Source: Candidatus Kaiserbacteria bacterium (GTDB taxonomy: Bacteria > Patescibacteriota > Minisyncoccia > Phycocordibacterales > UBA918). Taken from it: 36,890 bases of DNA. A model generated the notes under the pieces. It made no database searches, was not told where the DNA came from, and was given only the letters and a program-made list of their open reading frames with translations. The stretch lies in NCBI GenBank assembly GCA_020428815.1, contig JAGQMC010000041.1, positions 1 through 36,890 on the forward strand, in the 5' to 3' direction. Positions 1,663 to 36,642 of the stretch are shown here, piece after piece. The translations under genes and the position numbers were made by a program. Every line of letters starts with the position of its first letter. Position 1 is the stretch's first letter.

Positions 1663-4600
1663 ATGCTTCAGTGGGAGACATTGAGGGTTAGTTTGTTGTA
1701 TCCAAAATTTTGGCTAAAAATTGGAAGGCTCTTTCTATCTGTCTTATTAATTACAAGCCTCGTTTTCACAGACGTATTAAATTTACTCACCGGTGGACTT
1801 TTTTCAACAAAGTACTTTGGTGCAAAAACCACTTACGCTGACGATGGTGATTTTTCAATTTATCGAGAAGTGACAGGGACTGATTCGGTTACCACTTCAT
1901 TAGCAGATGTCACTTGGGATACAACGGTAACTGAAAGTTCTAACATTACACTGTCTGGAGGCTCAAATATAGATCTATCAGAGGGAGGTAAGTATTTAGT
2001 ACTTTACAACGTTTGGACTTTTGAAGGTGGTAGTACAGGAAATAACCGACGGGGTATGGAAACTTCTCTTAGTTTAGGTGGTTCCACCATTCCATATGGT
2101 TATGGGGCTGGATATATTCGAGACAGTGAAAACGACTTAAACGCTTATAATTCAGGAGCAGCTATTGTTGAGGCCTCCGCTGGCGATGATTTAAAAGTGC
2201 AAATTCAACGTTTTGATAATAATAGTGGTGCTGGAGTAGAAATCAGAAACAACACCAATGGTATATCAGTATTAAAGATCCCTGACTCACTTGATTACTT
2301 AAGACTACAAAGAACTACTGATATTCTGGGAGTTAATGCCAGTACGACATTTTCTGATTTAGCCTGGAATCAAGCTGATGAAGTGGATACAGATTCTTTC
2401 AGTTTTTCGCCTACAGATTCTGACATCACCTTAAAAGGTGGAAAAGATAAATTTTTCTTAGTAACTGCAAATGTAAATTTTGAGGATACAAGTGGCGGTG
2501 GCGTGCGACAAAATTATGAAATGCGGCTAACACTTGATGGTTCTGAGATACCAGGCACGAGAACGACTACTTATCTTCGCTACGATAACAATGTAATAAA
2601 GGGTACGACTCAGTACGTTGGTCTAATTAAAAAGACTGCTATTGGAGACCAAACTTTGAATGTAGAAATAAGAAACGAAAGTACGGCTGGCAGTCAAACA
2701 CAAATTAATGGCGGACAAACGGCTATCGCTATTGCCGCCATGAACGATGGGGTGGATGTTATTTCACTAACAAACACAAGCGCACAAACGTTGACTACTA
2801 GTCAAAGTGTTATAAATTTCGATGAACAAATCTTTGCCTCCTCTAGTGCGTTCACTCACTCAACCACCAGTAACCCTAGTCGTATTACCGTAAATGTTGA
2901 TGAAGACTACTTGTTCTTTTCAACTGCCTATACTTCACGAACTAGCGGCACTGCGAGAGATGTGCCGAGATTTGATTGGCGCACTGACGGAAGTGCTGTA
3001 ACCACTTATGGAGGACATGGTAGTTTCAATAGGGGAGCTCAAGGTAGTGAAGACACTTACACGAGTGGTTCAGCTGGTGGACTAATATTCAATGGTCTAA
3101 CTGATGGACAATATGTTGAAATTCTACAGTCTGACGAGACTACGGGGACACCTAATGCAGAATTTGCTGATGATGGTGTGGCATTACAAGCTGTCGTGTT
3201 AAACGATAAATTCTTTGGTACGGATGTGGTTGTGTCGGCTACTGGGACGCAAACACTTTCACCTGATATACCAAGCACCGGAGTGTATCTAGGTGGGGCT
3301 TTTGTAATAGCAGAAAATAATGCTAGCCGCAATGTAACTAATATTAGTATTACTGAATCGGGCAGTATCGATGGTAGTTCAGGCTTGGCTAATATCAAAC
3401 TTTACTACGATCTCGATACTAGCAATCCATATGACTGTAGTAGTGAATCATACTCGGGAGGGGAGTCACAGTTCGGATCAACTGATACTAATGGTTTCTC
3501 TGGAGCAAACGGGGTTTCAAGTTTTACAGGTACTGTTGGTATTTCAACTACACAAGCCCTCTGTGTGTATGTGGTGGCAGATGTGACTGACTCGGCGAAC
3601 GATGGGGAAACAATAGAGATTTCAATCAATAACCCGACTACAGATGTAGCTGTGACTAGTGGAGGTACGATAGTACCTGATAGTAGTGTCAATATAACTG
3701 GTTCAACGACTGTTCGTAATGCAGAACTAAGTCAAACTCACTACCGCTGGTTGAACGATGATGGTGTAGAGGGCTCAGCATCAGCTATAGAAAATGAAGA
3801 TACATCAGCTATCGGTTTTGCTAACGGCACCACCAGAAGATTGCGACTTCAAGTTGATGCCGCTGGTTCAACCTCTTCATTACCAACCACTTTCCAATTG
3901 GAGTTTGCCACTAAAACTGCTGCTACCTGTGGAGAGGTTAGTTCATGGTCTACTGTTGGTTCAGGTGGAGCTGATTGGATTATGTCTAGCTCAGGTTTTA
4001 TTACTGATGGTAATGATGCAACAAATATTGGAACTGGTTCAGGTGGCTTATCTGATCCATCTGGAGCTAGTTTCTTAGGAACTAACGGTGGACTTAGGGA
4101 TACTTCAGCTCAAACTGGATCCCTGACGTTAACCAGTTCGCAGTATGTTGAATTTGAGTTCGCGGTTGAACCTTCTACTACTGCTCCACAAGGCACTACT
4201 TACTGTTTCAGGTTAACGGATAATGGTTCAGAATTGCGCAATTACGCCACTTACGCTGAAGGGACGATCTCAGCTGATGTAAACGTTAGTGCCTCAAGTA
4301 CTCACATTGCTACTGTAGAAACAGGTTCTACTACAGCGTACTTAGGAGGTATTTTTGTAATTGAGCGACCAGGTACTGCGCGCACCTTAACTAACATTAC
4401 TGTAACTGAAACTGGTACTGTAGATGCTGGAGAACATTTGCGTAATCCAAGATTGTATTTTGATCTTGATACCAACCCCCCTTATGATTGTACTGGAGAG
4501 TCGTATAGTAATTTAGACAGTAGTGTAGCAGGTAGTGCCTTTACTGGACCTGATGGCTCTACTACTTTTACTGGTTCTGTCAGTATTAGTACCAACCAAT

Positions 4601-7600
4601 CATTTTGTGCTTACTTGGTGGTAGATGTGGCAGCCACCAGTAGCGACGGACAAACCATAAAATTTGAAATTAATGACCCGTCGAGTGATGTGGTAGTCAC
4701 TTCATCTTCAGTTGGACCAAGTACTGCAGTTTCACCAACCGGCAGCACAACCATTTCAGGGTCAGTTTTAACCCAGCAGCACTATCACTGGCGAAATGAT
4801 GACGGTAACGAAACTGGGGCTACTTCAGCGACGGGTGGTTCAGAGGATACTCCACTGTTAAGTGTACCTAAGGAAACCACCTACCGTCTTCGATTAGGAG
4901 TATCAAATGAGGGTGGAGTTGATGCTGCTGCCACTAATTTTAGGCTGGAATACGGAACTAAAGTTAGTACCTGTGATTTAGTGAACACATGGTTTGATGT
5001 GGGAGCGGTTGGTGGTGCTTGGGATATGTCACTTAGTTCTAATATTGCAGATGGCAATACCACTGATGTCACTCCTGGAGCTAATGGAGAAATTACTAAT
5101 GAAAATACCACCATTGATGGTGTAGGGGCTTTGCGAGAGACAACTTCAGAGACAGGAGCGATTACCCTATCAACTACAGAATTTACTGAACTAGAATATT
5201 CAATTGAAGCCACTGAAGATTCTGGGTACGACACAGACTATTGTTTTAGAGTGACAGATTCAGGAAGTCCTTTACCGATTTATATTAATTACCCAGAACT
5301 AACTACACGAGAAAAACAAGATTTTTTCATCCAAAGGGACACCGAAACAATTAGTGGCACAAGTATCACTCTAACAGCTGGAGTTGATTATATTGCTCCG
5401 TCAGCTACCACCACTGCTTTTGTAAGAATAACTGACTCTCACATGACTGGTGCAGCTAACAATCTTGGAACCGATGGTCAAAATGCAGATGACGTAACAG
5501 CCTATATATCAGATCAGAGTGACATTACCTCCTCTTTTACGATTAGCCGACCTTCCTCTGCGACTTCCAACACTAGAGTTGACTGGGAAATAGTTGAGTT
5601 TATTGGTTTACCTGGCACTGATAATGAAATTGTCGTCAGGGGTGTCGGGGAGGTAGCTTTTGCAACCAGTGAGTTTATCGACACAGGAGCAGTTATTTCA
5701 GACGTGGTTGATGATGATGACGTGGCAGTGTTTATTACCGGACAGAGAAACAATGACACTGGTAGAACTAACTACAACGACGGACTATTTACTGCTAATT
5801 GGAGTACAACAACTAGCCAACCAGAATTTGAAAGAGGCGATGCAGACTCAACAGCAGATGTTAGTTACGCAGTGGTTGAATTCACTGGAGCAAATTGGAA
5901 GATACAGAGAGTTGAACATACTTATACAGCGGCTGGGTCAACGGAAACTGAATCTATGACTGCTATAAATTCAATCTCAAGAGCTTTTGTTCACGCGCAA
6001 AAGCGCGTTGGTGAAGGGTTACGAAGCATCGATGAAGGGGGTCATTTAGTTTATATTTCTAGTATTGGTGCTGTATCATTCTATCTTCACGGAACAGCTG
6101 AGACACCTACTGACCATACGTCAATTGCTTGGGTTTTTGAGAACACCCAAATTGGTAACGGGAAAATGAACGTGTACCAACAGTCTGGTGCTCTTAATAA
6201 CCCTGACCCCGAACCAGCTACTTATAGCATTTCTATTGGCGCAACGGTAAACACCACCAATGCTAGTATTTTTGGAAACAACTACACGGTTGGTACTGGT
6301 ACTACTTACCCGCGCCTTCATACTGGTTTTACAATTGCATCATCAACTCATATTGAGGTTTATCGTAGCGACACTAATAATGATATGGAGTTTAGGTCTG
6401 AAGTGGTGGAGTGGCCGGTGGCTGAAACTTCAGTGCGACAAAATTACTATCGATTCTATGTTGATAATGATTCAATTACTCCAACTACCCCATGGCCAGC
6501 TATTGGTACACCATTGGGTGAAAATACAACTATTACAGCTGCTGACGATCCTCTAGGAGAAGGTGAAAGAGTCCGTATTAGAATGTCTCTAAAAATTAAC
6601 AATGCTACTTTGCCGCAGAATACAAAAGCGTTTAAATTACAGTATGGTCTTCAGGAAACTACTTGTAGTGCTATTTCAGTATGGACTGACGTGGGTGCAC
6701 CAGGCAGTGGAACTATCTGGCGCGGTTATAATACGTCTCTTTCTGATGGAACAGAGGTGGCTACCAGTACACCCGCCACTGGCACTTTACTACTCACGCC
6801 GTCTGATGTTGCTGGTACATTCGAAGAACAAAATAACTCAGCTGTAAATCCTTACTCAGTAGATATTGGACAGGATGTAGAATATGACTGGGTGGTTGAA
6901 CACAATGGGGCCGCACAACGTTCTGATTACTGTTTTAGAATAGTGAATTCTGATGACTCAGAAATAGATGGTTATATAAATTATCCAACCATTAGAACCA
7001 CAGGCTACACACCTATTTCTTGGGATTGGCGGTGGTTTGATGACGTTAATAATGAAACACCCAGTTCACCTTTGGCTGCTTTAAACGTAGCGCCGATCGA
7101 TATAGCAAACGAAGATGTTATCAAACTCCGTGTTATTGCTTCAGAAGTAGAAAATGCTGTTGGAAGCAATATCAAGTTTGCTCTTCAGTACTCACAATAC
7201 GCAGATTTTTCTGATGGGGGTACATTTGTTACCAGTACATCAAGTTGCCTAGCCAGCTCTACCTGGTGCTACGCAGATGGGGCTGGAGTAGATAATGAGA
7301 TTATTCAAGAAAAGGTTTTAACCAATGCCGATGGTTGTACCGGCGGAGTTGGAATTGGTTGTGGAACACACAATGAAGCGCAAAATTCGATCAGTACTTT
7401 GACTCACGTAGCTAGCGCAAATACTGAGTTTGAATTTACTATTTCCAATGCAGCTGCTCGAGCAAATGGTGTATATTACTTCAGATTATATGACGTAAAT
7501 CAAGATGAGCCTTTGGTAGCTAGTTCAAGCTATCCTTCATTAGTAACTGAAGGAGCTCAATTGGTATTTTCGGTAGCTGGATTACCCGCGGCCACTACTA

Positions 7601-8073
7601 CAGCAGGTGTCACAACTGATTATGCTACAACCCCCAGTGCGATCGGGTTTAACTCATTGCCATTTGATAGTTCACGTGAAGCAGCACAGCGCATATCAGT
7701 CACTACAAATGCCACTGAAGGTTATAAGCTCTATATGTACGCTGGGTCACAGCTGCTAAATTCATATGGTGATTCAATTCCAGCAATTACGGCGACTAAT
7801 GCAGTACCCGCTGGCTGGGCCACTGCTTGTTCAGGAGCTGCTACCGGTTGTTTTGGTTATCACACCACAGATGCCACACTTGACAATGGCTCTGCCAGAT
7901 TTTCACCAATTGATTCTTATGCAGCTTTAGAAACCACGCCACAAGAAATAATGTATAGTTCTATTCCGATTATCGATGTTCATGATGTGATTTATCGAGT
8001 TCAAGTTTCTGAACAACAGACGGCTGGAGATTACGAAACTGACATTGTCTACATAGCCGTACCAACCTTCTAA
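1663..8073 (+). CDS. Giant modular secreted surface protein (2136 residues)
   Basis: The N-terminus has a basic stretch and a hydrophobic segment (about residues 18-45), a signal peptide or anchor, then only extracellular-type sequence. Modules in order: three related beta-rich units (about 66-210, 213-365, 365-515); an A module starting near 520 and repeated near 872 ('YLGG.FVI', 'LY.DLDT..PYDC'); and a B module starting with 'HYRW.NDDG' near 689 and 1038 and in diverged form near 1591 and 1785. B modules keep two cysteines ('TC.....W..VG' and 'YCFR'), possibly a disulfide. A separate 'FIQRDTETISGTS' block fills 1219-1590. The last ~170 residues form a small beta domain with 'GYKLYMYAG' and a 'VYIAVPTF' end. 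'NDDG' repeat proteins recur in CPR genomes, but no activity is assigned. Likely an adhesin or S-layer-like protein. The following two genes are probably co-transcribed. Confidence 0.85.
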   Translation: MLQWETLRVSLLYPKFWLKIGRLFLSVLLITSLVFTDVLNLLTGGLFSTKYFGAKTTYADDGDFSIYREVTGTDSVTTSLADVTWDTTVTESSNITLSGGSNIDLSEGGKYLVLYNVWTFEGGSTGNNRRGMETSLSLGGSTIPYGYGAGYIRDSENDLNAYNSGAAIVEASAGDDLKVQIQRFDNNSGAGVEIRNNTNGISVLKIPDSLDYLRLQRTTDILGVNASTTFSDLAWNQADEVDTDSFSFSPTDSDITLKGGKDKFFLVTANVNFEDTSGGGVRQNYEMRLTLDGSEIPGTRTTTYLRYDNNVIKGTTQYVGLIKKTAIGDQTLNVEIRNESTAGSQTQINGGQTAIAIAAMNDGVDVISLTNTSAQTLTTSQSVINFDEQIFASSSAFTHSTTSNPSRITVNVDEDYLFFSTAYTSRTSGTARDVPRFDWRTDGSAVTTYGGHGSFNRGAQGSEDTYTSGSAGGLIFNGLTDGQYVEILQSDETTGTPNAEFADDGVALQAVVLNDKFFGTDVVVSATGTQTLSPDIPSTGVYLGGAFVIAENNASRNVTNISITESGSIDGSSGLANIKLYYDLDTSNPYDCSSESYSGGESQFGSTDTNGFSGANGVSSFTGTVGISTTQALCVYVVADVTDSANDGETIEISINNPTTDVAVTSGGTIVPDSSVNITGSTTVRNAELSQTHYRWLNDDGVEGSASAIENEDTSAIGFANGTTRRLRLQVDAAGSTSSLPTTFQLEFATKTAATCGEVSSWSTVGSGGADWIMSSSGFITDGNDATNIGTGSGGLSDPSGASFLGTNGGLRDTSAQTGSLTLTSSQYVEFEFAVEPSTTAPQGTTYCFRLTDNGSELRNYATYAEGTISADVNVSASSTHIATVETGSTTAYLGGIFVIERPGTARTLTNITVTETGTVDAGEHLRNPRLYFDLDTNPPYDCTGESYSNLDSSVAGSAFTGPDGSTTFTGSVSISTNQSFCAYLVVDVAATSSDGQTIKFEINDPSSDVVVTSSSVGPSTAVSPTGSTTISGSVLTQQHYHWRNDDGNETGATSATGGSEDTPLLSVPKETTYRLRLGVSNEGGVDAAATNFRLEYGTKVSTCDLVNTWFDVGAVGGAWDMSLSSNIADGNTTDVTPGANGEITNENTTIDGVGALRETTSETGAITLSTTEFTELEYSIEATEDSGYDTDYCFRVTDSGSPLPIYINYPELTTREKQDFFIQRDTETISGTSITLTAGVDYIAPSATTTAFVRITDSHMTGAANNLGTDGQNADDVTAYISDQSDITSSFTISRPSSATSNTRVDWEIVEFIGLPGTDNEIVVRGVGEVAFATSEFIDTGAVISDVVDDDDVAVFITGQRNNDTGRTNYNDGLFTANWSTTTSQPEFERGDADSTADVSYAVVEFTGANWKIQRVEHTYTAAGSTETESMTAINSISRAFVHAQKRVGEGLRSIDEGGHLVYISSIGAVSFYLHGTAETPTDHTSIAWVFENTQIGNGKMNVYQQSGALNNPDPEPATYSISIGATVNTTNASIFGNNYTVGTGTTYPRLHTGFTIASSTHIEVYRSDTNNDMEFRSEVVEWPVAETSVRQNYYRFYVDNDSITPTTPWPAIGTPLGENTTITAADDPLGEGERVRIRMSLKINNATLPQNTKAFKLQYGLQETTCSAISVWTDVGAPGSGTIWRGYNTSLSDGTEVATSTPATGTLLLTPSDVAGTFEEQNNSAVNPYSVDIGQDVEYDWVVEHNGAAQRSDYCFRIVNSDDSEIDGYINYPTIRTTGYTPISWDWRWFDDVNNETPSSPLAALNVAPIDIANEDVIKLRVIASEVENAVGSNIKFALQYSQYADFSDGGTFVTSTSSCLASSTWCYADGAGVDNEIIQEKVLTNADGCTGGVGIGCGTHNEAQNSISTLTHVASANTEFEFTISNAAARANGVYYFRLYDVNQDEPLVASSSYPSLVTEGAQLVFSVAGLPAATTTAGVTTDYATTPSAIGFNSLPFDSSREAAQRISVTTNATEGYKLYMYAGSQLLNSYGDSIPAITATNAVPAGWATACSGAATGCFGYHTTDATLDNGSARFSPIDSYAALETTPQEIMYSSIPIIDVHDVIYRVQVSEQQTAGDYETDIVYIAVPTF

Positions 8074-8078
8074 ATGTT

Positions 8079-9089
8079 ATGATAAACACTATGTTTCAAA
8101 ACCTAAAAGTATTAATTTGCATTGCAATTTTACTTTTTGTTTTACCTTTTTCAGCTTTTGCCGGTGAGATTTCCATTCGTCCTTTTTTAATAGATGAAAC
8201 CTTAATACCACGCGATATAGTATCCAAACTAATAACAGTTTCTAGTGATTACGAACATCGCAAGGCAGTTCTCTACGCTACAGTAAATGAAATAACCGTG
8301 GACAACGAGGGTGAGATTAAAGAGTTTATTTCACCAGTCATGACTGATCGCACTACTAATCCAGCTAGTTGGGTTGAGATTAGTCGTGGTCGGATTGAAG
8401 TGCCAGCCAAGGAAACTCGCGAAGTCCCCTTCATTATCAGGATTCACCCATACGCAGAGCCCGGAGTCTACCACGTTTTTGTTGGTGTAGTAGAAGCCCC
8501 GAATCGACCGACAGCCCAAGCTAAAGCTATGGCTGGAGATGCTGATGGTGTGATTGTAAAAATAACCATAGCGGATCAGAGAACTGATGCTTTGAAAATA
8601 ACTTCATTTAACATCGAACGCTTTATTACTGGTGAAGATAGTAAACAGGTAAATATTGAGCTGGAAAATATCGGTGACTTAGCAGCTGTTCCTAGTGGTG
8701 AAATTATTTTTTATGATTCACGTGGAGTCGAGGTCACATCTATGCCGGTAGAGGGTGCTGAAATTGTCCCAGGAGAAACCCAAAACTTGTCTCTGACCAT
8801 GCCACTAGAAGATGATTTGGGTAGATATAAAGCAAATTTGCGCTTAAATTATGGAAAAAATCAGACCGCATCACTTTACGACACGACTTTTTTCTATTTA
8901 ATGCCACTTCACATGATGTTAGTCCTGTTTCTAGGTGTTCTAGTTGTTAGTATATTGATCGTATTTTTACTTAGAAGAGCCTTTGCTGTACATGAGTACG
9001 ATGATACCGAAGATGTAGTAATGTATGTTCGCGAAGGACACGACCCTAATCCGCAAGATCATGATATCGACCTTAAAAACAATCAGTAG
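8079..9089 (+). CDS. DUF916/WxLIP-like secreted protein with C-terminal membrane anchor
   Basis: 336 residues. A signal peptide ends near 'SAFA|GE' (about residue 28). Two beta-sandwich-like halves follow, with 'REVPFIIRIHPYAEPGVYHV' in the first and 'IELENIGDLAAVPSGEI' in the second. A membrane helix lies at about 275-298 ('MLVLFLGVLVVSILIVFLL'), followed by a short basic then acidic cytoplasmic tail. This layout (signal, two Ig-like domains, C-terminal helix) is that of the DUF916/DUF3324 proteins that accompany WxL surface proteins in Firmicutes and bind peptidoglycan and partner proteins. The gene begins 5 bases after the giant protein and overlaps the next gene, so the three form one operon. 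ATG 8091 is an alternative start. Family call is by architecture and motif, not by a search. Confidence 0.65.
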   Translation: MINTMFQNLKVLICIAILLFVLPFSAFAGEISIRPFLIDETLIPRDIVSKLITVSSDYEHRKAVLYATVNEITVDNEGEIKEFISPVMTDRTTNPASWVEISRGRIEVPAKETREVPFIIRIHPYAEPGVYHVFVGVVEAPNRPTAQAKAMAGDADGVIVKITIADQRTDALKITSFNIERFITGEDSKQVNIELENIGDLAAVPSGEIIFYDSRGVEVTSMPVEGAEIVPGETQNLSLTMPLEDDLGRYKANLRLNYGKNQTASLYDTTFFYLMPLHMMLVLFLGVLVVSILIVFLLRRAFAVHEYDDTEDVVMYVREGHDPNPQDHDIDLKNNQ

Positions 9090-10683
9090 CCTGTTTCTAC
9101 TTTTCATATTCTTAATATCACCACTTTTTGCGAATGCTCAAAATTCTATCTCTTTAAGTGTTTCACCAACTCTTTTTGAAATGACTGCAAATCCTGCTCA
9201 GGAGTGGGACAGTAGTATAAGAGTGATAAACTCCAACCCTCAAGAGCTGGAAGTTTATATAGATATTGTAAATTTTGCACCACAAGGAGAAGTGGGTCAG
9301 GGGGTTTTTATACCAGTGTCAGAAGATGAGTCACAGGGAAAAACTCTAGCTGAGTGGATTAAACCACAAATGACATCAGTGGTTATACCTCCTGAAAAAA
9401 CTGTTGAAATCCCTTTTGGTATTGCTGTGCCTGAAGACGCTCCGCCTGGCGGCCACTTCGCAGCCATATTAATCGGGACTAAACCACCAAAAGAGCAAGC
9501 TGGTTCATCACAAGTTGAAACCTCACAAGTAGTGACTTCTTTGGTGTTTCTGAGGGTGACCGGGGATATTATTGAAAATGGTTCAATTCGTGAGTTTAGA
9601 GCGACAAAATCCTTGGTAGAGAAACCTGAAGTTGATTTTGAACTCAGATTTCAAAATGAGGGTAATGTTCACATCTTACCCCAAGGTGATATTAAAATTT
9701 ACAACATGTGGGGTCAGGAGCGAGGAGTTATTCCGGTAAATCAGCAGGCCTTATTCGGAAATGTTCTTCCAAATCAGATCAGAAAGTACACCTTTGCTTG
9801 GACGGGGGAATGGTCTATGGCCGATATGGGTCGATATACTGCTGAAGTTACATTAGGCTATGGTACAGATCAGCGGCAGTTTGCTACCAGTCGAACCTAT
9901 TTCTGGGTATTACCTTGGAAGTTAACTTTGCTGGTTTTTGCGATAATATTTGGCTTTATTTTACTAATAACTTGGGCAATCAGGTTGTATATTGAAAAAA
10001 TGTTGTCTATGGCAGGTGTATCCCCATCAGGAAGACCGATATTTGCACAGCCAGACAAACTTAAACGACCAAAAAAAGTTTCTGTTATTGCTCCACTTGA
10101 AGAAGGGATCCTTGATTTAAGTCAACGCTTTCAATCTAGTCGCTCAGTATCACAAAAAGTATCAAACTCGTTTAAGTTTATTAAGCAGTATCACAAATTC
10201 TTTTTTATTGTACTGGCGGTATTGTCATTTGTAGCTTTTATTATTTGGTTTACCAAAAACGCTACTGTGAGTGACAGAGGCTACGAGGTAATTGTAGATC
10301 CAGAAGGTAGTAACATACGTATTTCTTCTGAACAAGTTGAATATGATGATATGAAAGAAACTGATATCAAAGATATTGAAACCTTACCAAAACCTAATGA
10401 TCTACCTCTAATCAAGTTGGTAAATCGTAGCGGAGTCAGCGGTCTAGCGGCAAAGTTAAGAGTGTCACTAGAAAGCAAAGGTTATGAAATATCTGATTTA
10501 TCAACTGATTTCGGCGTAAAGGATCAAAATACAGTCATTGTGTACCACCCAGATTTCATTGACCAAGCCCTCAATCTTAGTGCTGAGATTGAAGGTGTAC
10601 TGCTATCAGCTTATGCTGACGCACCTTTAAATGAACCAATTACAATTTATGTAGGTAAGGACTATGTAAGTGAGGTAGAATAA
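9061..10683 (+). CDS. DUF916-like protein fused to a LytR_C domain
   Basis: From ATG 9061 the protein has 540 residues and opens with a clean signal peptide ending near 'FANAQ'. ATG 9025, 12 codons upstream in the same frame, would bury the signal, so 9061 is preferred; it overlaps the previous gene by 29 bases. Two Ig-like domains follow, paralogous to the upstream gene ('EIPFGIAVPEDAPPGGHF', 'FELRFQNEGNVHILPQG'). A membrane helix lies at about 283-308, a cytoplasmic stretch of ~70 residues, then a second helix at about 377-398. The C-terminal ~90 residues ('IKLVNRSGVSGLAAKLR...') match the LytR_C (cell-envelope-related attenuator C-terminal) fold. With two helices both end domains face outward. 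Probable role: anchoring or assembling the giant surface protein at the wall. Confidence 0.65.
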   Translation: MISTLKTISSLFLLFIFLISPLFANAQNSISLSVSPTLFEMTANPAQEWDSSIRVINSNPQELEVYIDIVNFAPQGEVGQGVFIPVSEDESQGKTLAEWIKPQMTSVVIPPEKTVEIPFGIAVPEDAPPGGHFAAILIGTKPPKEQAGSSQVETSQVVTSLVFLRVTGDIIENGSIREFRATKSLVEKPEVDFELRFQNEGNVHILPQGDIKIYNMWGQERGVIPVNQQALFGNVLPNQIRKYTFAWTGEWSMADMGRYTAEVTLGYGTDQRQFATSRTYFWVLPWKLTLLVFAIIFGFILLITWAIRLYIEKMLSMAGVSPSGRPIFAQPDKLKRPKKVSVIAPLEEGILDLSQRFQSSRSVSQKVSNSFKFIKQYHKFFFIVLAVLSFVAFIIWFTKNATVSDRGYEVIVDPEGSNIRISSEQVEYDDMKETDIKDIETLPKPNDLPLIKLVNRSGVSGLAAKLRVSLESKGYEISDLSTDFGVKDQNTVIVYHPDFIDQALNLSAEIEGVLLSAYADAPLNEPITIYVGKDYVSEVE

Positions 10684-17824: not shown

Positions 17825-18631
17825 ATGTCACTCTTGGTAGATGCCACAGTGCTTTTTGTGGGAGAAATTAACGATAAACTTTCGTCAGTACAAGACGAGT
17901 TGTTGGGTCGTGGCTCAAAAGTGCTAAATCTGGCTTGTAGCGATGTAAGTCGCGATTATATAAATAAACAAAAAGTAAATCTTATAGTAGTAAACTATTT
18001 GGATGAAAGAAATATATGTGACACTGTACTATCACATTTAAAAGGTGAAGATTTATCAACGCCAATTCCAGTCTTTGCTTTAGTGGCAGATGATACAACA
18101 GAAATTCAAACAGTATTAACGGAGGGGGCTGCTGACTACATTACCGTAAATGAGGATTTAGAAGAAATAATGCAGAAAATCGAAGCAGTTGTTGAGGGAG
18201 ATACCGTTTTTTCAGGAAATTCCGCTATTGACATAACCCCGATTCAAGCAGACGTATCTTCAAAAGGCATTAAAGTTTTTGCAATTGAAGATGATCCACT
18301 GTTAAGAAACTTACTTTCTATTCGGATGGACAAATCAGACTTTCCCTATGAATTTAGTGTTGATGGTAAAGACGTTTTGCCAGCGATGAAAAACTTTAAT
18401 CCTGATGTAATTATTCTTGACTTAATGCTGCCTGGGAGAAGTGGTTTTGAAGTGCTTGAAGAAATTAAAAGCGATAGTCAGCTTAAAGATACGCCTGTTA
18501 TAGTTTTTTCAAATAAAGACGGAGTTGACGATAGACGTAAGGCAAAAGAGTTGGGTGCCAATAGTTTTTATGTAAAAGCGATGACAGACTTGGCAGAACT
18601 AGTCGAGACAATCGAAGAATTAGTTAAATAG
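17825..18631 (+). CDS. Two-receiver response regulator without output domain
   Basis: 268 residues. The C-terminal half (about 150-268) is a canonical receiver: acidic pair in 'FAIEDDPLL', phospho-acceptor Asp199 in 'VIILDLMLPG', Ser in 'VIVFSNKDG' and Lys in 'FYVKAMTD'. The N-terminal half (about 8-130) has the same alternating strand-helix pattern ('TVLFVGEI', 'LIVVNYLDE', 'PVFALVADDTTE', 'GAADYITVNEDLEE'), but the acceptor position reads 'NLIVVNYL' with no Asp, so it is a degenerate receiver. No DNA-binding or enzyme domain follows. It likely relays phosphate from, or acts with, the histidine kinase two genes downstream. The next gene begins 3 bases after its stop. Confidence 0.9.
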   Translation: MSLLVDATVLFVGEINDKLSSVQDELLGRGSKVLNLACSDVSRDYINKQKVNLIVVNYLDERNICDTVLSHLKGEDLSTPIPVFALVADDTTEIQTVLTEGAADYITVNEDLEEIMQKIEAVVEGDTVFSGNSAIDITPIQADVSSKGIKVFAIEDDPLLRNLLSIRMDKSDFPYEFSVDGKDVLPAMKNFNPDVIILDLMLPGRSGFEVLEEIKSDSQLKDTPVIVFSNKDGVDDRRKAKELGANSFYVKAMTDLAELVETIEELVK

Positions 18632-18634
18632 TTT

Positions 18635-21199
18635 ATGGCGGTTAAAAAACCTAAAACTAAGAGCAAGAATGCAAAAGCAGTAAAGCCGGTGCGGACAAAA
18701 GCTACCGTAAAGAAAACTGTAAAAAAGTCTAATAAACCCACTACAGAGATAGCTCGGGCGAAATCAACCAAGATAAAGGGAACCCCAAGCAAAAAGACTA
18801 AAGTGGTTAGAAAAAAAACAGTTTCTAAATCTAAGTCAAAAAGTTCAAAGGTTGTTGTAGCCGAAAAAGCAACCAGCAAGCAACCAGACAATAAAAAACT
18901 CTCATCGAAAAAAACCCCAGACGAAGTGTCTTTACCGAATGTTCCAACTACCAGAATGGTCGAAAGGACACATTTTATAGAAAAACTTTTCGATAGGGAA
19001 GTGAAGCGTTCATTTTATGTTATTGCTTATGTTTCTGCAGTTTGTTTTATTTTGGTTGGCGCAACTTATGCACTGTTTTCTACAGTGCTGCCTGATGCTA
19101 ACTTAGCAAGCGTCTATAGTACTACGGACAATAGTTCAACTACTGACGATGAAATCATAGATGAACAGGCCACTACTATAACAGGCATAAATGCCGAACC
19201 ACCAAATTTAGATTTCTTAACAACTGTGCCTAATTTGATAGATAACGAAATGTGGATTGTCTTTTCAGCAGTTTCTATTAATGATTTTTGGGTAGGTCTA
19301 AGAGCTGTGGGTACTAACAAGTACACACAATTACCATTTCAAGCTTTGAGTGAAAGAAGGTTTAAGTTTTTAGTTGACCCTAATGACCATGACAGCGGTT
19401 ATTATGCTTTGGTGGTAAAGGGTAAGGCAGCTGACGGTTCTGGAAATCGTATATTCGACTCTCGTGTTTTTTTTCTAGGCTCAGCTGAAGCAGAAATTGA
19501 GTATAATCAGCTCGATCCAGATGAAAAAGAAGAAGACATAACTAATGATGAACCGCTCGAAGAAGACACGACCACAAAATCAGAAAATGAAGATGTGGTT
19601 GAATCTACCAGTGAAGCTAGTGATGAAAATGAAAAAATAGCAGAAGAGGTTGTAGGTGAATATGATCGCAAATTGCATGAAGAAGAGGATGCTCGCGAAC
19701 CTGTACCAACAGAACCAGTCAAAGTAGAAGCTGAAAAATTTGAAACAAGCTTATCTTTTTTCAAATTTAAACCTTTCAACAAATCAGAAGTCTCTGGGGT
19801 AGTTAGTGTTCCGTTTGTAACTAACTATGATTTGAAATTCATTGAACTATATGCTCGTCCAGTGTCAGGGTCCGCTGAGCTGTTTGTTGGTTTAGCAATA
19901 AATTCAAATAACGAGTGGCGTTTTGTTTTTGATACAACTAAGCTAAAAAACGGAAAATATGAGTTCAAAGCTCTTTCAAAAACAAAAGATAACCATACTG
20001 TTAAATCAACAGCTTTAAACTTGCTGGTAAACAATCCGCAGGTAGATGTTGTTAAAACAGAAAATGAGATATCTTTATTAAAAGCAAAAACATCCTCCAC
20101 TTCAGTGACTAGTCCACGTGAATTTCTAGGGGTTGTAGATGAAGACATTAGCCCTAGTGTAAAGGCCATTGACCCAAAGGTTGATGTTGAGACAAAGAAA
20201 TTAATTGATAACAACAAGACAGAATTGAATGAGTTAGCAAAAAGGTATGCTGTCGCAATTCAAAGTGGTGATGATATTTTAATTGAAACTGTCAAACGTG
20301 AATTGACCAAAACTAAAGACACTATTGTGCTTTCCACTTTGAATGATAATGAAACACAAGCTATCTTTGATGACGTTAACGAGGAGTTTACAAAACACAT
20401 TAAGGAAATAGAAGGTCGAGTTGAAACCTTTGAGCGCTTACGTTCAGACAAAAGCTCTGGAGAAACTTCAGAAGACTCCGATAAAGATGGTATTTCCGAC
20501 TATGATGAAGTTCACATCTTTAAGACGAACCCATTACAAATTGACTCAGATAATGATGGTACACCGGATGGAATTGAAGTAGTGAAAGGCTTTGATCCAA
20601 GTGATCCTAATGACGACGCTTTAATTCAATATGATTCACCAAAAAACTTTAAAGTATTAGAGCGTGATGATGTGCTAACAGTGGAAACAGTTACCCCAAT
20701 AGAATCAATTGATTCAAATATCGGACTACCATCAGTTCGAGCAGAAATTAAAGGAAAAGCTCTACCTAATAGCTATGTCACTTTGTTTATTTACAGCACA
20801 CCAACTATTGTTACTATAAAAACTGATGCTGACGGCTCATTTATTTACACCTTTAACAAAGAGTTGGAGGATGGAGAGCATGAAGTCTATGTGGCAGTTA
20901 CTGACAATGCAGGTGCCATTATTGCACAAAGTAAACCTTTTGCTTTCGTAAAAGAAGCCCAAGCTTTTTCAGTAGTTGGTGCAAATGAGACGGATAATTT
21001 ACCGTATGTTCCACTTACTACTGAAAGTAATAATAGCAGCGCCTTACAAACTATTATTGGTTTGGGCATATTAGCTCTCGGCCTAATATTGCTGATGCTT
21101 GGAATTAGTTTACGTTCCCAAGATGAAAAAGAAGACTCTATAGTAAATTTGTCAAAAAAAACTAATAGTCAAACAAAATCTGGTCCAACTCCAGCTTAG
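18635..21199 (+). CDS. Large membrane-anchored surface protein with Lys-rich tail and TSP3-like calcium repeats
   Basis: 854 residues. Residues 1-100 are a Lys/Ser/Thr-rich, histone-H1-like tail predicted cytoplasmic. A membrane helix lies at about 126-150 ('SFYVIAYVSAVCFILVGATY'). Outside come an Ig-like domain (about 180-285), an acidic linker, a second Ig-like domain (about 370-470), a charged helical stretch, thrombospondin-type-3-like Asp repeats ('DSDKDGISDYDEVHIF', 'QIDSDNDGTPDGIEVV', about 610-660) that probably bind calcium, another Ig-like domain ('GKALPNSYVTLFIYS...'), and a second membrane helix near 805-826 with a short tail. It sits between a response regulator and a histidine kinase with gaps of 2-3 bases, so it is probably part of that signalling unit. 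Function not recognised. Confidence 0.85.
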   Translation: MAVKKPKTKSKNAKAVKPVRTKATVKKTVKKSNKPTTEIARAKSTKIKGTPSKKTKVVRKKTVSKSKSKSSKVVVAEKATSKQPDNKKLSSKKTPDEVSLPNVPTTRMVERTHFIEKLFDREVKRSFYVIAYVSAVCFILVGATYALFSTVLPDANLASVYSTTDNSSTTDDEIIDEQATTITGINAEPPNLDFLTTVPNLIDNEMWIVFSAVSINDFWVGLRAVGTNKYTQLPFQALSERRFKFLVDPNDHDSGYYALVVKGKAADGSGNRIFDSRVFFLGSAEAEIEYNQLDPDEKEEDITNDEPLEEDTTTKSENEDVVESTSEASDENEKIAEEVVGEYDRKLHEEEDAREPVPTEPVKVEAEKFETSLSFFKFKPFNKSEVSGVVSVPFVTNYDLKFIELYARPVSGSAELFVGLAINSNNEWRFVFDTTKLKNGKYEFKALSKTKDNHTVKSTALNLLVNNPQVDVVKTENEISLLKAKTSSTSVTSPREFLGVVDEDISPSVKAIDPKVDVETKKLIDNNKTELNELAKRYAVAIQSGDDILIETVKRELTKTKDTIVLSTLNDNETQAIFDDVNEEFTKHIKEIEGRVETFERLRSDKSSGETSEDSDKDGISDYDEVHIFKTNPLQIDSDNDGTPDGIEVVKGFDPSDPNDDALIQYDSPKNFKVLERDDVLTVETVTPIESIDSNIGLPSVRAEIKGKALPNSYVTLFIYSTPTIVTIKTDADGSFIYTFNKELEDGEHEVYVAVTDNAGAIIAQSKPFAFVKEAQAFSVVGANETDNLPYVPLTTESNNSSALQTIIGLGILALGLILLMLGISLRSQDEKEDSIVNLSKKTNSQTKSGPTPA

Positions 21200-21201
21200 T
21201 T

Positions 21202-22554
21202 ATGATCTCTTCTCTTCTAACAGCCATTCAAAAAGGGTTTGTAATTATGCGAACCAACTCCAAGATTTTACTAGTAGGGATACTGGTTTTTGTATTTCCA
21301 GTATTATTTTTTGTAGTAACAAATAATTTTTTTGATACAGCAAATACAAACATAGGGACAAGCCGAGGGCAAAAAATTGGAATATTGCATGATTCTTTGA
21401 GAGCCTTAACTCAGCAAACTAATGGTGTTGGTGAATCGGTTAAAGTAGTGGCAGATAGAGTTTTTTCAGATTCAGAGAATTATACAATTAAACAAATAGT
21501 AATTTTTAGAACCGCTACAACGAGCCTTGACGTTCTCTATGCTACTAGTACAAGTGAGGGTTTGAGTTTTGAAGATGTCTATACTTCTTATCGAGAAACT
21601 TCATTTGGAGAAAAGGTTACCTTCCAACAATCTGACTATTATCTATCAACTGGTAGAGTCTCACATGTGTTCAGTCGGGAGAAAGTTTCCGATGGCTATA
21701 TTTATATTTTCTCGCTACATGATTATCGATCGGTAGATATGATACTAAAAAAAAGAATGCGTGATTCATACTATGGTCTAACAGCAATTTTTGTTTTTCT
21801 GATAGCACTAGCGTATTGGATTAACCAGCAAACAAATTGGGCCAGAAAGTACACAGAAGCTAAAAACACTTTGTCAGAAAGAGATAGCTTTACCAATATG
21901 ATTGCCCATGAGTTTAGAACTCCTCTAACCGCTATTAAAGGTTACGCAAGTTTTCTAGAAGAGTCACAAACAATATCTAAAGATGAGCTAAAGTATGCTC
22001 AAAACATCAGTATTTCAACAGAACGATTAGTGTTACTAGTTAACGATTTTCTCGAAGTCGCCAGAATTCAGTCGGGCAGACTACCAATTGAAATTATCCA
22101 AGTCAAACTAGAGCCTATGTTGGTCAAGTTGACTGAAGATTTACGATCATTGGCATCTGAAAGAAACATTGAATTAAAATTTGAGTTACCACCAAAGCCA
22201 ATTATTTTTAGAACTGATCCAAATCGAGTTGTGCAGATACTAACAAATATTGTCACTAACGCCATTAAATACACTGATGCTGGTTCGGTAACTATCGCAG
22301 CCACACAAGAACCGGATAAAGTTATCATCAGAGTGAAAGATACTGGAACTGGTATTAGTGCAGATGATCAAAAAAAATTGTTTACACCCTTTACTAGGGT
22401 TGGAAACGTAGATGAGACAAAAATTGTCGGGACAGGGTTAGGGATGTGGATTACCAAGCAATTAGTGACCATTTTACACGGAACTATTGGGGTAGAGTCG
22501 ATAAAAGGGACAGGTACTCATATTGTCATTACGTTTAACACAGATAGAAACTGA
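21202..22554 (+). CDS. Membrane sensor histidine kinase
   Basis: 450 residues. Membrane helices at about 22-43 and 192-210 flank an extracytoplasmic sensor of ~150 residues with no recognised fold. The kinase core follows without a HAMP domain: H-box 'IAHEFRTPLTAIKGYASFLE' with His236, N-box 'ILTNIVTNAIKYTDAG', G1 'VKDTGTGISADDQKKLFTPF', G2 'GTGLGMWITKQLV'. All catalytic boxes are intact. In-frame ATG 21247 could be the start and would still keep the first helix; 21202 follows the previous stop by 2 bases and is kept. It is the likely partner of the receiver protein at the head of the operon. Confidence 0.93.
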   Translation: MISSLLTAIQKGFVIMRTNSKILLVGILVFVFPVLFFVVTNNFFDTANTNIGTSRGQKIGILHDSLRALTQQTNGVGESVKVVADRVFSDSENYTIKQIVIFRTATTSLDVLYATSTSEGLSFEDVYTSYRETSFGEKVTFQQSDYYLSTGRVSHVFSREKVSDGYIYIFSLHDYRSVDMILKKRMRDSYYGLTAIFVFLIALAYWINQQTNWARKYTEAKNTLSERDSFTNMIAHEFRTPLTAIKGYASFLEESQTISKDELKYAQNISISTERLVLLVNDFLEVARIQSGRLPIEIIQVKLEPMLVKLTEDLRSLASERNIELKFELPPKPIIFRTDPNRVVQILTNIVTNAIKYTDAGSVTIAATQEPDKVIIRVKDTGTGISADDQKKLFTPFTRVGNVDETKIVGTGLGMWITKQLVTILHGTIGVESIKGTGTHIVITFNTDRN

Positions 22555-31740: not shown

Positions 31741-34700
31741 TTAGTTTCTCACTTCACCAGGTTTATTCAGATAGGTAATCGGGATTAGTAGTAGTGTAAT
31801 AAAAACTGAGAATATCAATCCAAACATTACCGCATAAGCTAGCGGTGCCCACAAATCTCCAGCGTAAGTGAGTGGGATCATTCCGAATACTGTGGTAATG
31901 GTTGTTAGTAGAATTGGTCGTAATCGACTAGCTGCGGTTATAGTGATTACTTCATCAATTGACCTACTCGGATCTTCCTTTCGCAACTTATTCATCATGT
32001 CTATTAAGAGAATCGAGTTATTAACGACAATACCAGATAAAGCAATGAAGCCCATCATAGAAGGGAAGGAGAGAGTGCTTCCAGTGATAGCTAAGCCGAA
32101 AAAGATTCCAATTAGTGAATAAGGTAAGATTGAGAGAACGTACCTCATATGTAGATATGAATTAAACTGCAGTGTCAAAACACACACCATTAGACCAACA
32201 CCCACAATCAATGCTAAGAACATTTCCATAAAGGCTTTGTTTGATTCATCTGATTCACCACCACCGGTACTTATGATTACTCCATCTGGTAAGTTAATGT
32301 TTGATTCAATTTCTGCAAGTAAAAGCGCTTGTACTTCTCGAGCATTTGCACCTTCAATTACATCAGCTTCAACGCTAACAACTCGTTTTCCGTCTTGATG
32401 GTTGATTACTGAACTAGATTCTCGTAACGATACATTTACTAAACTAGAAAGAGGCACCGGTCCTACCTGGGAGGGAACAGTTATGTCTCCTAAAGCATTA
32501 ATTGAGGTGCGGTTTACAGTATCGGTGGTAGGTAGATTATCGTTACTGACGTTAAGCTTGACTACTACATCAATATCATCAACTAAAGTGGTAATTGATG
32601 TAGCGTCAGAGCCATAAATCGCAGTACGGGCTAACTGTGAAACCAAAAATGGACTGACTCCAACTGCCGCTGCTTTATCTTTATCCAACTCTAGAACAAA
32701 CTCAGTACTGTTGTTATTTGTGCTAGTTCTTACATTAATTGTTTGACTCTGTTCTTTAAAAAGTTCTGCTGTTTGATTTGCTAGATTTGTTAAGTCAGTT
32801 AGGTTGTCACCCAAAAACTTTACTAGGATTGGCGCTCCAGTTGGCGGACCGTCACTAGGTTGATCAATTGTTACATCGATATCTTTAAGAGTAGAAAACT
32901 GTTTTCTAAGTTCAGTTACAATATCAGTACTAGTTCGTTTCCTATCTAAATCTAAGTTGATAAAAATATTAGCAAATTTTTCACCTGTACCACCATTACC
33001 CCACTGACTACCACTGCCGACAGTAACACTATATGAATCAATTTCTGGGATTGAATAAAGAAACTCTTCTACTCTGCGAACAGAAATGTCCGTCACATCT
33101 TTAGTGGTACCTTCAGGCTCTTCTATCTCAACAATTAGATAGTCACTATCACTTTGTTCAAAAAATACCACTTCGACGATTCGAGCAGAGGGAAGGATTG
33201 TGCTCGATATCAGTGACGAAATAACGATAACTAAGATAAACTGCGGAAACCAAATAATTTTTCTTTTCCAGTTTGGCCAGCTTCTCTTATCCTGAGTTTG
33301 TAGTGATTTTAAGGTGATTAGATAAGTGAATGGTCCAGCTAGTGCGCCCGCAAAAACATTAATTGCCAAAAAGATGGAAAACACTAACAAAGAAATAATA
33401 AGAGCTTGGAATTTTTGCTGCTTTGTTTTGTCATGTAAGTAAAGTTCTAGATGACGTTTATACCAAGATTCTAATTTGCGAGCATATTCTAGTTGCTTTA
33501 TCTCAAACTGGGTTGTGTTTCGACGGTGAAGGAAGTTGGAGGCAAGTAAGGGTAAGATTGCTAACGAAACAAACAAAGAAGCAAACAACAGAAAAATAAG
33601 TGTGAAGGGTATACTGGCAATAAATTGTCCAGTTACTCCAGAAACAATGAATAGACCGACAAACATTGATACAGTAGTCAGAGTACCGGAAATTAGTGGT
33701 AATTTGAACTCTGCAATCGCTTGAATAGCAGCCTCCTTTTTGTTGATATGAACATTATCCTTCATTTTTCTATTAATGCCCTCAACCATCACAATAGCTG
33801 AATCGACTAAAATACCAATCCCTAAAATTAAAGAAAAAAGACTTAAAAAATTTATGGTATTGCCAGAAAAATAAAGGCCGATGAAACCAATCATAAACGA
33901 CAAAGGAATAGCTGTTCCAGCCAGCAAGCCTTCTCTCCAGCCAATTGCAAATACCAAAAGAATTACAACAAGCAGAACTGTTTGCAGACCAGAACCACCG
34001 AGACGAAGCAGGTCCTTATTAATCATATCTCCTGAATCAATCACTGGTACGGTTGTGATTCCAAATAGTAAACCATCAACCTTTTTGAGCTCTTCAACAC
34101 GTTTGTTAACTGCTTTTGTGATGGCTGTAATGTCGCCACCAACTTGTTTATAGACATCAATAGTGGCTGAATTTTGCGACGGATCACCATTTACACTAAG
34201 TCTTGATAGGGAGCTGGCAGGAGCTAAAGCATCTTCTACTTTTGCAATATCACTTACATAAACTGGTTGACCACCTAAACTAGAAATAGGAATATCAGCT
34301 ATTTCTGACGTATCAGTTATATCACCATCAAAAGCTATGTTGTAAGAAACTCCCTCATTAATGATTTGTCCAATTGGGAAGGTCAGATTGGCATTTCTAA
34401 TCGCCTGCGTAATATCCAGTAAACTCAAGTTGTAACGCAAAAGACTTTTTTGATCGACAATAACTGTCACCTCACGATCACGCACGCCATTTATTTCAAC
34501 TTTTGACACACCGGTCACTGATTCAATTTCTTTTTCTAACTGACTAGTTAAGTCTGTCAGCTCTAAATCAGATAAATCAGCTGAAATAGCCACAGTTAGT
34601 ATAGGCTGGTCAACAAAGTTAACTTCGGACACAAAGGGGTCGTTAGCGTCAGAGGGTAGATCAGGTTTTATTGCATCCACTTTATCCTTTAGGTCTAAAA

Positions 34701-35007
34701 TCGATTTGTCTAAATCAGCACTTTCGTCAAACTCAATTATGACGCTAGACACTGACTCCCTTGAAGTAGAGGTTATTTCTTTAACATTTTCAAGACTGGA
34801 TAGGCCTCGCTCTATCTCATTAGTGACAAGCGATTCAACGTCAGCGGCGGGTGCTCCAGGTAGAACGGTAGAAACTACACCGATTGGAATTACTACTTCG
34901 GGCGAAGACTCACGAGGAATTGATGAAATGCTATACAAACCAACACCTATGAGAGCAGTCAAAAATAGATATGCGAAGCGATTATTTTTAATGAAAAAAT
35001 CCCACAT
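31741..35007 (-). CDS. RND-family (AcrB/HAE1-like) transporter with extra membrane segments
   Basis: 1088 residues. Standard RND layout: helix 1 at about 10-28, a large periplasmic-type loop with 'VSTVLPGAPAADVESLVTNE' and 'LLDITQAIRNANLTFPIG', helices 2-6 (about 335-500), helix 7, a second large loop, and helices 8-12 at the end. Helix 4 carries 'GIGILVDSAIVMVEG' with the proton-relay Asp (one Asp where AcrB has two). Helix 10 carries 'FIALSGIVVNNSILLIDMMN'. About 45 residues at 530-575 between helices 6 and 7 add two hydrophobic segments not found in AcrB. It should export small molecules driven by protons. The upstream adaptor gene ends 2 bases before its start, so they are one operon. No outer-membrane channel gene is visible. 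Confidence 0.93.
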   Translation of the reverse strand: MWDFFIKNNRFAYLFLTALIGVGLYSISSIPRESSPEVVIPIGVVSTVLPGAPAADVESLVTNEIERGLSSLENVKEITSTSRESVSSVIIEFDESADLDKSILDLKDKVDAIKPDLPSDANDPFVSEVNFVDQPILTVAISADLSDLELTDLTSQLEKEIESVTGVSKVEINGVRDREVTVIVDQKSLLRYNLSLLDITQAIRNANLTFPIGQIINEGVSYNIAFDGDITDTSEIADIPISSLGGQPVYVSDIAKVEDALAPASSLSRLSVNGDPSQNSATIDVYKQVGGDITAITKAVNKRVEELKKVDGLLFGITTVPVIDSGDMINKDLLRLGGSGLQTVLLVVILLVFAIGWREGLLAGTAIPLSFMIGFIGLYFSGNTINFLSLFSLILGIGILVDSAIVMVEGINRKMKDNVHINKKEAAIQAIAEFKLPLISGTLTTVSMFVGLFIVSGVTGQFIASIPFTLIFLLFASLFVSLAILPLLASNFLHRRNTTQFEIKQLEYARKLESWYKRHLELYLHDKTKQQKFQALIISLLVFSIFLAINVFAGALAGPFTYLITLKSLQTQDKRSWPNWKRKIIWFPQFILVIVISSLISSTILPSARIVEVVFFEQSDSDYLIVEIEEPEGTTKDVTDISVRRVEEFLYSIPEIDSYSVTVGSGSQWGNGGTGEKFANIFINLDLDRKRTSTDIVTELRKQFSTLKDIDVTIDQPSDGPPTGAPILVKFLGDNLTDLTNLANQTAELFKEQSQTINVRTSTNNNSTEFVLELDKDKAAAVGVSPFLVSQLARTAIYGSDATSITTLVDDIDVVVKLNVSNDNLPTTDTVNRTSINALGDITVPSQVGPVPLSSLVNVSLRESSSVINHQDGKRVVSVEADVIEGANAREVQALLLAEIESNINLPDGVIISTGGGESDESNKAFMEMFLALIVGVGLMVCVLTLQFNSYLHMRYVLSILPYSLIGIFFGLAITGSTLSFPSMMGFIALSGIVVNNSILLIDMMNKLRKEDPSRSIDEVITITAASRLRPILLTTITTVFGMIPLTYAGDLWAPLAYAVMFGLIFSVFITLLLIPITYLNKPGEVRN

Positions 35008-35009
35008 AA

Positions 35010-36533: not shown

Positions 36534-36633
36534 ATAAATAAAGTTAAATTTTTCGCAACATACCATCAAAATCACTTTTTGTCCATCGTTTTGTTGGCTA
36601 TATAATTTTATTACTCTGATACTACGCAGATTG

Positions 36634-36642
36634 TGGTACAAT
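36634..36642 (+). promoter_or_regulatory. Extended -10 (TGGTACAAT) for the last gene
   Basis: TGG plus TACAAT, nine bases before ATG 36652; the transcript would start 2-3 bases before or at the start codon. It lies in the divergent region shared with the adaptor gene. Confidence 0.55.

Follow-up and report, generated by a model that had tools for sequence, protein, structure and literature searches.

The window analyzed here, 36,890 nucleotides in length, is a whole contig (C32) of a Candidatus Kaiserbacteria genome of 0.88 Mb that is 99% complete. Patescibacteria (CPR) are tiny, mostly parasitic bacteria; the WxL/WxLIP surface system is known from gut Firmicutes. The three open reading frames first described at the locus were all present (Table 1). 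The first encodes a giant protein in which both "GYKLYMYAG" and the terminal "VYIAVPTF" were located; the other two encode smaller proteins, here called WxLIP1 and WxLIP2. As had been described, the genes adjoin: 5 bases separate the giant gene from that of WxLIP1, and the two WxLIP genes overlap by 65 bases. The named nearest relatives were Patescibacteria (Parcubacteria, Paceibacterota, Kaiserbacteria, Elulimicrobium). Elsewhere in the window, a Big_13/TSP3 surface-type protein (854 residues) is encoded between response regulator and histidine kinase genes (17825-22554), and the stretch 31741-36641 has genes for an RND transporter (ACR_tran) together with one for an HlyD-type fusion protein. 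Matches to DarA_N, NB-LRR and DUF entries that were under cut-off were taken as chance.

Table 1. Features of the locus, with positions in the window
Feature	Position	Strand	Basis and remarks
Giant secreted stalk protein, 2136 aa	1663..8073	+	ORF; signal segment, no C-terminal membrane helix, no LPxTG
Stalk repeat 1, aa 689-868	3727..4266	+	
Stalk repeat 2, aa 1036-1215	4768..5307	+	
Stalk repeat 3, aa 1590-1779	6430..6999	+	
Stalk repeat 4, aa 1784-1962	7012..7548	+	Immediately N-terminal to C-terminal domain
C-terminal WxL-like domain, aa 1960-2136	7540..8070	+	All beta; AlphaFold2 pLDDT 90.6, pTM 0.86
Motif 1, G-Y-K-L	7720..7731	+	Aligns with G-W-x-L of WxL
Motif 2, Y-x5-Y-I-A	8032..8058	+	Aligns with Y-x5-W-x-L of WxL, identical spacing
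WxLIP1, 336 aa: signal peptide, two Ig-like domains, membrane helix	8079..9089	+	Model, profiles, fold
WxLIP2, 552 aa: signal peptide, two Ig-like domains, two membrane helices, extracellular LytR_C (predicted)	9025..10683	+	Pfam, profiles
WxLIP_PGBD (PF06030) match in WxLIP2	9169..9468	+	24.7 bits, E 1.4e-5 for genome, cut-off 27.3
LytR_C (PF13399) of WxLIP2, aa 464-547	10414..10665	+	35.5 bits, cut-off 22.2, E 2e-8

The giant has a single N-terminal hydrophobic segment (residues 18-36); a C-terminal membrane helix and an LPxTG motif were looked for, and neither was found. The genome encodes one sortase, and other routes of surface attachment therefore exist in this organism. Open frames of 3681 to 4924 residues with a WxL-like domain at the end were observed in four other places (G274:C6, G248:C4, G104:C9 and G012:C1), and a PF06030 gene directly followed three of the four.

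WxLIP1 and WxLIP2 were paralogous (99.9% in a profile-profile comparison). The preliminary description was correct in giving both a signal peptide and two Ig-like domains; its single membrane helix holds for WxLIP1 (residues 280-298) but not for WxLIP2, in which two were found (301-319 and 392-410). The fusion of one of them to LytR_C was borne out by Pfam in WxLIP2. Because LytR_C sits after the second helix and a basic loop lies between the helices, this domain should be outside the cell. In the WxLIPs of five PF13731-type Patescibacterial clusters (L158, L160, L161, L162 and L165), a LysM domain follows a single membrane helix, an order that would place the wall-binding domain on the cytoplasmic side.

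No Pfam entry matched WxLIP1. The PF06030 match of WxLIP2 was under the cut-off of 27.3 bits, as was that of a second scan (21.4 bits); its orthologue at L192 scored 27.3 bits, at the cut-off, and PF06030 was found in two further loci of the same genome, at one of them (the C23 protein) above cut-off. A control genome, that of Thermotoga maritima, also scored above the PF06030 cut-off, and DUF916-like domains thus extend beyond Bacillota and Patescibacteria. For reference, Firmicute WxL/WxLIP clusters were retrieved with the published sequence NQIDKxxxYFDLK as query; when this sequence was sought in WxLIP2, the aligned position read SPTLFEMTANP. Full-length comparison to the Firmicute WxLIP profile gave 78% for WxLIP1, 93% for WxLIP2 and 99% for other CPR WxLIPs, with 1.3% or less for reversed controls, and the matched region took in the two Ig-like domains as well as the membrane helix. 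Domain 1 alone matched its Firmicute counterpart at 93-98% (93% for WxLIP1). The similarity of domain 2 to DUF3324 was weak (1-6% for WxLIP1 and WxLIP2, 50% for other CPR WxLIPs), in agreement with the absence of PF11797, the second WxLIP domain, from the genomes in which it was sought (0/11). A sequence search of the PDB with the WxLIP1 profile returned nothing relevant, and a search of plasmid DNA with a CPR WxLIP locus returned no match.

The AlphaFold2 model of WxLIP1 (pLDDT 81) comprised two beta domains and a helix (277-303). When it was compared with 350,542 PDB chains in Foldseek, the top three matches were chains of the Enterococcus faecium WxLIP (9i25_C, 9i1y_A and 9i1y_B; E values 1.3e-11 to 1.9e-10), the first of which is titled "bound to long WxL". 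The TM-scores to this protein were low (0.31-0.41), as would be expected were the inter-domain angle different. By PF06030, full-length profiles and the fold search, WxLIP1 and WxLIP2 are confirmed as true relatives of the Firmicute WxLIP; the kinship to WxL-interacting DUF916/DUF3324 proteins proposed for them at the outset was accordingly upheld.

The same WxLIP1 model also matched the chaperone-usher chaperones CsuC (5d6h, 6fqa) and Caf1M (4b0m), and the model of the giant's C-terminal domain weakly resembled pilin domains and TasA. Such matches would be expected were the WxLIP-like proteins membrane-bound chaperones of the PapD/CsuC kind, donating strands only during export or assembly, with the giant then released or polymerised. 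This alternative is regarded as quite unlikely: WxLIP was the better match (E 1.3e-11 vs 2.7e-7 for CsuC), no usher gene was recognised nearby among the proteins scanned, and a membrane helix combined with wall-type domains (LytR_C, LysM) suggests a lasting tether.

The two Trp-x-Leu motifs of WxL were sought in the C-terminal domain of the giant and were absent, YxL and YxA being present instead; PF13731 matched neither this domain nor anything else in the genome. A degenerate-pattern search was effective when built from three close sequences. The glycine of motif 1 was invariant (84/84 relatives) and was followed by Tyr in 68 and Phe in 11; the first Tyr of motif 2 was likewise found in 84/84, with Tyr (67) or Phe (10) at the second aromatic position. 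The resulting consensus sequences were G-[YF]-x-[VIL] vs G-W-x-[LV] in WxL for motif 1, and Y-x5-[YF]-x-[AVI] vs Y-x5-W-x-L in WxL for motif 2, with equal spacing. Since both motifs line up in register with those of WxL and keep their spacing, the earlier reading of "YxL for WxL" was right. The position of the domain was also conserved: 96 of about 102 family members in the fetched loci ended exactly at the last residue. The genome of the window carries two paralogues of the domain, one of them encoded directly upstream of the C23 WxLIP. A contig labelled Syntrophomonadaceae (L188, PWVN01000053.1) encodes a giant with a C-terminal domain 51% identical to that of the window and the start of a WxLIP1; it is probably a misbinned Patescibacteria contig.

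Compared directly in hhalign, the domain family matched Firmicute WxL weakly and not significantly (6.7%), for which reason CPR WxL domains were used as intermediates. PF13731 matches were present in 15/380 Patescibacteria genomes (above cut-off in 5), and 13 of these 15 also carried PF06030. The Firmicute WxL HMM matched the CPR-WxL domains (best up to 5e-14), and the two profiles matched at 98%. In reciprocal searches, the CPR-WxL HMM found 28/84 members of the window domain family (best 5.9e-5), and the HMM of that family found 22/47 CPR-WxL domains (best 1.4e-6); none of the reversed sequences matched. Between the two sets, hhalign gave 76-95% across several alignments and 64% with the default MAFFT alignment. 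Reversed profiles, WxLIP profiles and stalk profiles served as controls in the profile comparisons. The stalk repeat of about 180 residues that occurs four times in the giant was also found in five WxL-type-cluster proteins of other Patescibacteria genomes. In four of them the C-terminal domain was assigned to the CPR-WxL set, to which the fifth has a weak match; both kinds of C-terminal domain thus occur on the same cargo, beside the same kind of partner. Through the Pfam-recognised CPR WxL domains and the common stalk module, the identification of the C-terminal domain as a diverged WxL-like module gained support, and its sequence appears, indirectly, to be homologous to WxL by way of the CPR-WxL intermediates.

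The AlphaFold2 model of the C-terminal domain was confident (Table 1). In Foldseek, the isolated domain had no PDB match below 1e-3, and its best matches were assorted beta-sandwiches, including pilin domains, CupB6 and TasA. The 50 matches listed for the C-terminal model did not include 9i25_A, a solved WxL chain that is present in the PDB sequence set; in the structural comparison by which the preliminary description was to be checked, this is the chief weak point. An isolated domain, lacking the strand of a partner, may have been modelled differently from the solved WxL. A fold search of BFVD with the domain gave no meaningful match. A PDB sequence search with the domain family yielded beta-propeller matches only, which were rejected as chance.

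The weak direct match to Firmicute WxL, the lack of a Pfam match and the absence of 9i25_A from the fold matches listed are also what would be seen if the WxLIPs were genuine and the C-terminal domain an unrelated beta domain that had taken the place of WxL as a convergent partner. This account overlaps in function with descent from WxL and differs from it in ancestry. It is judged unlikely, given the HMM matches in both directions, with none among the reversed controls, the register and equal spacing of both motifs, and the stalk module common to WxL-type proteins.

With a profile made from the three paralogues of this genome, 132 copies of the C-terminal domain were found in 77/380 Patescibacteria genomes; WxLIP domain 1 was found in 114/380 (about 30%). 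The predicted co-occurrence of the domain with genes for two-Ig anchors was observed: PF06030 lay within 2 kb of 50/132 domain copies vs 0.8 expected. Of these 50 neighbours, 45 were downstream on the same strand, as were all 32 within 500 bp. Among the PF06030 matches listed, 54/77 genomes with the domain had one vs 60/303 without it (Fisher p 1.6e-16), which leaves 23/77 domain-bearing genomes without PF06030 among those matches. At 19 homologous loci in other Patescibacteria, a WxLIP1-type gene directly followed the domain gene in 15 (one cut by a contig end), a degree of conservation that shows the layout not to be chance; 14 of these 15 also had a WxLIP2-type gene, with a LytR_C-like part in 11 of the 14, and at two more of the 19 the WxLIP pair lay about 5 kb downstream. 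Ig-like beta-sandwich folds are common and yield spurious structural matches, so the possibility that these are ordinary secreted beta proteins, neighbours by chance and without a shared function, was also weighed. It is contradicted by the co-occurrence data (50 adjacent pairs vs 0.8 expected, 45 of them in one orientation) and by an arrangement kept across 14 loci, and is considered highly improbable.

Viewed from the WxLIP side, 20 of the best 29 PF06030 loci had WxL or a WxL-like domain no more than 1.5 kb away, and another six had one at up to 4 kb. With the initial thresholds, half of the 150 PF06030 places listed had neither domain in a radius of 2.5 kb. The C18 locus in the genome of the window is among these, and its neighbour was found only by an iterated profile, so that the count of pairings is a lower bound. 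At that locus (L009, G000:C18, 7692-10296), a WxLIP of 362 residues is encoded between small secreted proteins of 239 and 254 residues, the latter being a match (E 2e-14) to the profile of the WxL-like family; the arrangement is close to that of the small-WxL clusters of Firmicutes. The same genome encodes two more WxL-like proteins (L007, G000:C23:20000-32879, and L008, G000:C22), which adjoin type I cohesin proteins (PF00963, above cut-off) and dockerin proteins, one of which is above the PF00404 cut-off; this suggests that a surface assembly based on cohesin and dockerin is connected with the WxL-like system.

According to PMC10599100, the WxL system occurs almost solely in Lactobacillales and Bacillales. 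WxLIP binds WxL (PMC10599100; titles of the entries 9i25 and 9i1y), and a hairpin of DUF916 has been predicted to fill out the sandwich of WxL (PMC10599100). The window domain resembles WxL (PF13731) of these orders in its C-terminal place, its length of about 175 residues, its all-beta structure, the position of its gene just upstream of WxLIP, the G-aromatic-x-aliphatic motif and the terminal Y-x5-aromatic motif; it differs in having Tyr for both Trp and Ala for the second Leu, in the absence of a Pfam match and in the weakness of the direct profile match. With WxLIP (DUF916/DUF3324; PF06030/PF11797), the downstream proteins have in common the signal peptide, two Ig-like domains, a membrane helix, a homologous domain 1 and the fold match to 9i25_C and 9i1y. 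Unlike WxLIP, they are two tandem paralogues with a second domain too diverged for PF11797, and LytR_C and an extra membrane helix are present in WxLIP2, LysM in other Patescibacterial WxLIPs. The Csc/WxL clusters of Lactobacillus plantarum, Listeria and Enterococcus likewise have the WxL gene or genes immediately upstream of WxLIP, but they combine small and large WxL proteins with one WxLIP, whereas one giant stalk protein and two WxLIPs are encoded here. In the literature searched (subscription papers and preprints lay outside it), no paper linked WxL or DUF916 with Patescibacteria, CPR or Parcubacteria. A single text match for "Patescibacteria" was unrelated. The "peptidoglycan-binding domains" reported to be highly expressed in Paceibacteria (PMC10936435) were weighed as candidates for these proteins, but the wording of that paper indicates another type of domain, with no mention of WxL. 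Judged against that literature, what is new is the presence of WxLIPs in a phylum without an earlier description of them, a diverged WxL-like family, the giant cargo and the LytR_C and LysM fusions.

The explanation that is held with good, though not full, confidence is that the locus encodes a Patescibacterial surface-display system of the WxL/WxLIP type, in which the C-terminal domain is a diverged WxL-like domain and the WxLIPs tether the giant. The giant would be exported through Sec. Its repeats would make up a long stalk, and the final ~175 residues, a diverged WxL-like beta-sandwich, would stay near the cell. WxLIP1 and WxLIP2 would be held in the membrane with both Ig-like domains outside. 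If the solved complex of E. faecium WxLIP with WxL is a guide, Ig-like domain 1 would act as receptor, binding the C-terminal domain non-covalently, probably through a WxLIP strand added to its sandwich. The giant would so be tethered without sortase, by WxLIP1, WxLIP2 or both. WxLIP2 would re-cross the membrane to place LytR_C outside, where it could attach the assembly to peptidoglycan or glycopolymer of the wall. We infer this binding, strand insertion and wall attachment, as well as an adhesive role of the proteins. The helix of WxLIP has been proposed to enter the host membrane (PMC10599100); a re-entrant course of WxLIP2 (helix, basic loop, helix, LytR_C) would fit the bacterium's own membrane better.

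A diverged and widespread version of WxL/WxLIP thus occurs in Patescibacteria, where it apparently holds giant stalk-like proteins on the cell. This offers a testable mechanism for the display of large surface proteins in these bacteria, with a bearing on how they grip their hosts. WxLIP domain 1 occurs in about 30% of the sampled genomes, beside giants of up to 4924 residues, which provides named genes and a specific candidate binding pair, and the profiles make it possible to annotate such proteins in the whole phylum. More tentatively, as a possibility that is somewhat doubtful at present, the WxL/WxLIP pairing, with a WxL-like family of its own and WxLIPs fused to wall-type domains, may be a general and old non-covalent platform of Patescibacteria for displaying giant adhesive stalks, with which epibionts would grip host cells.
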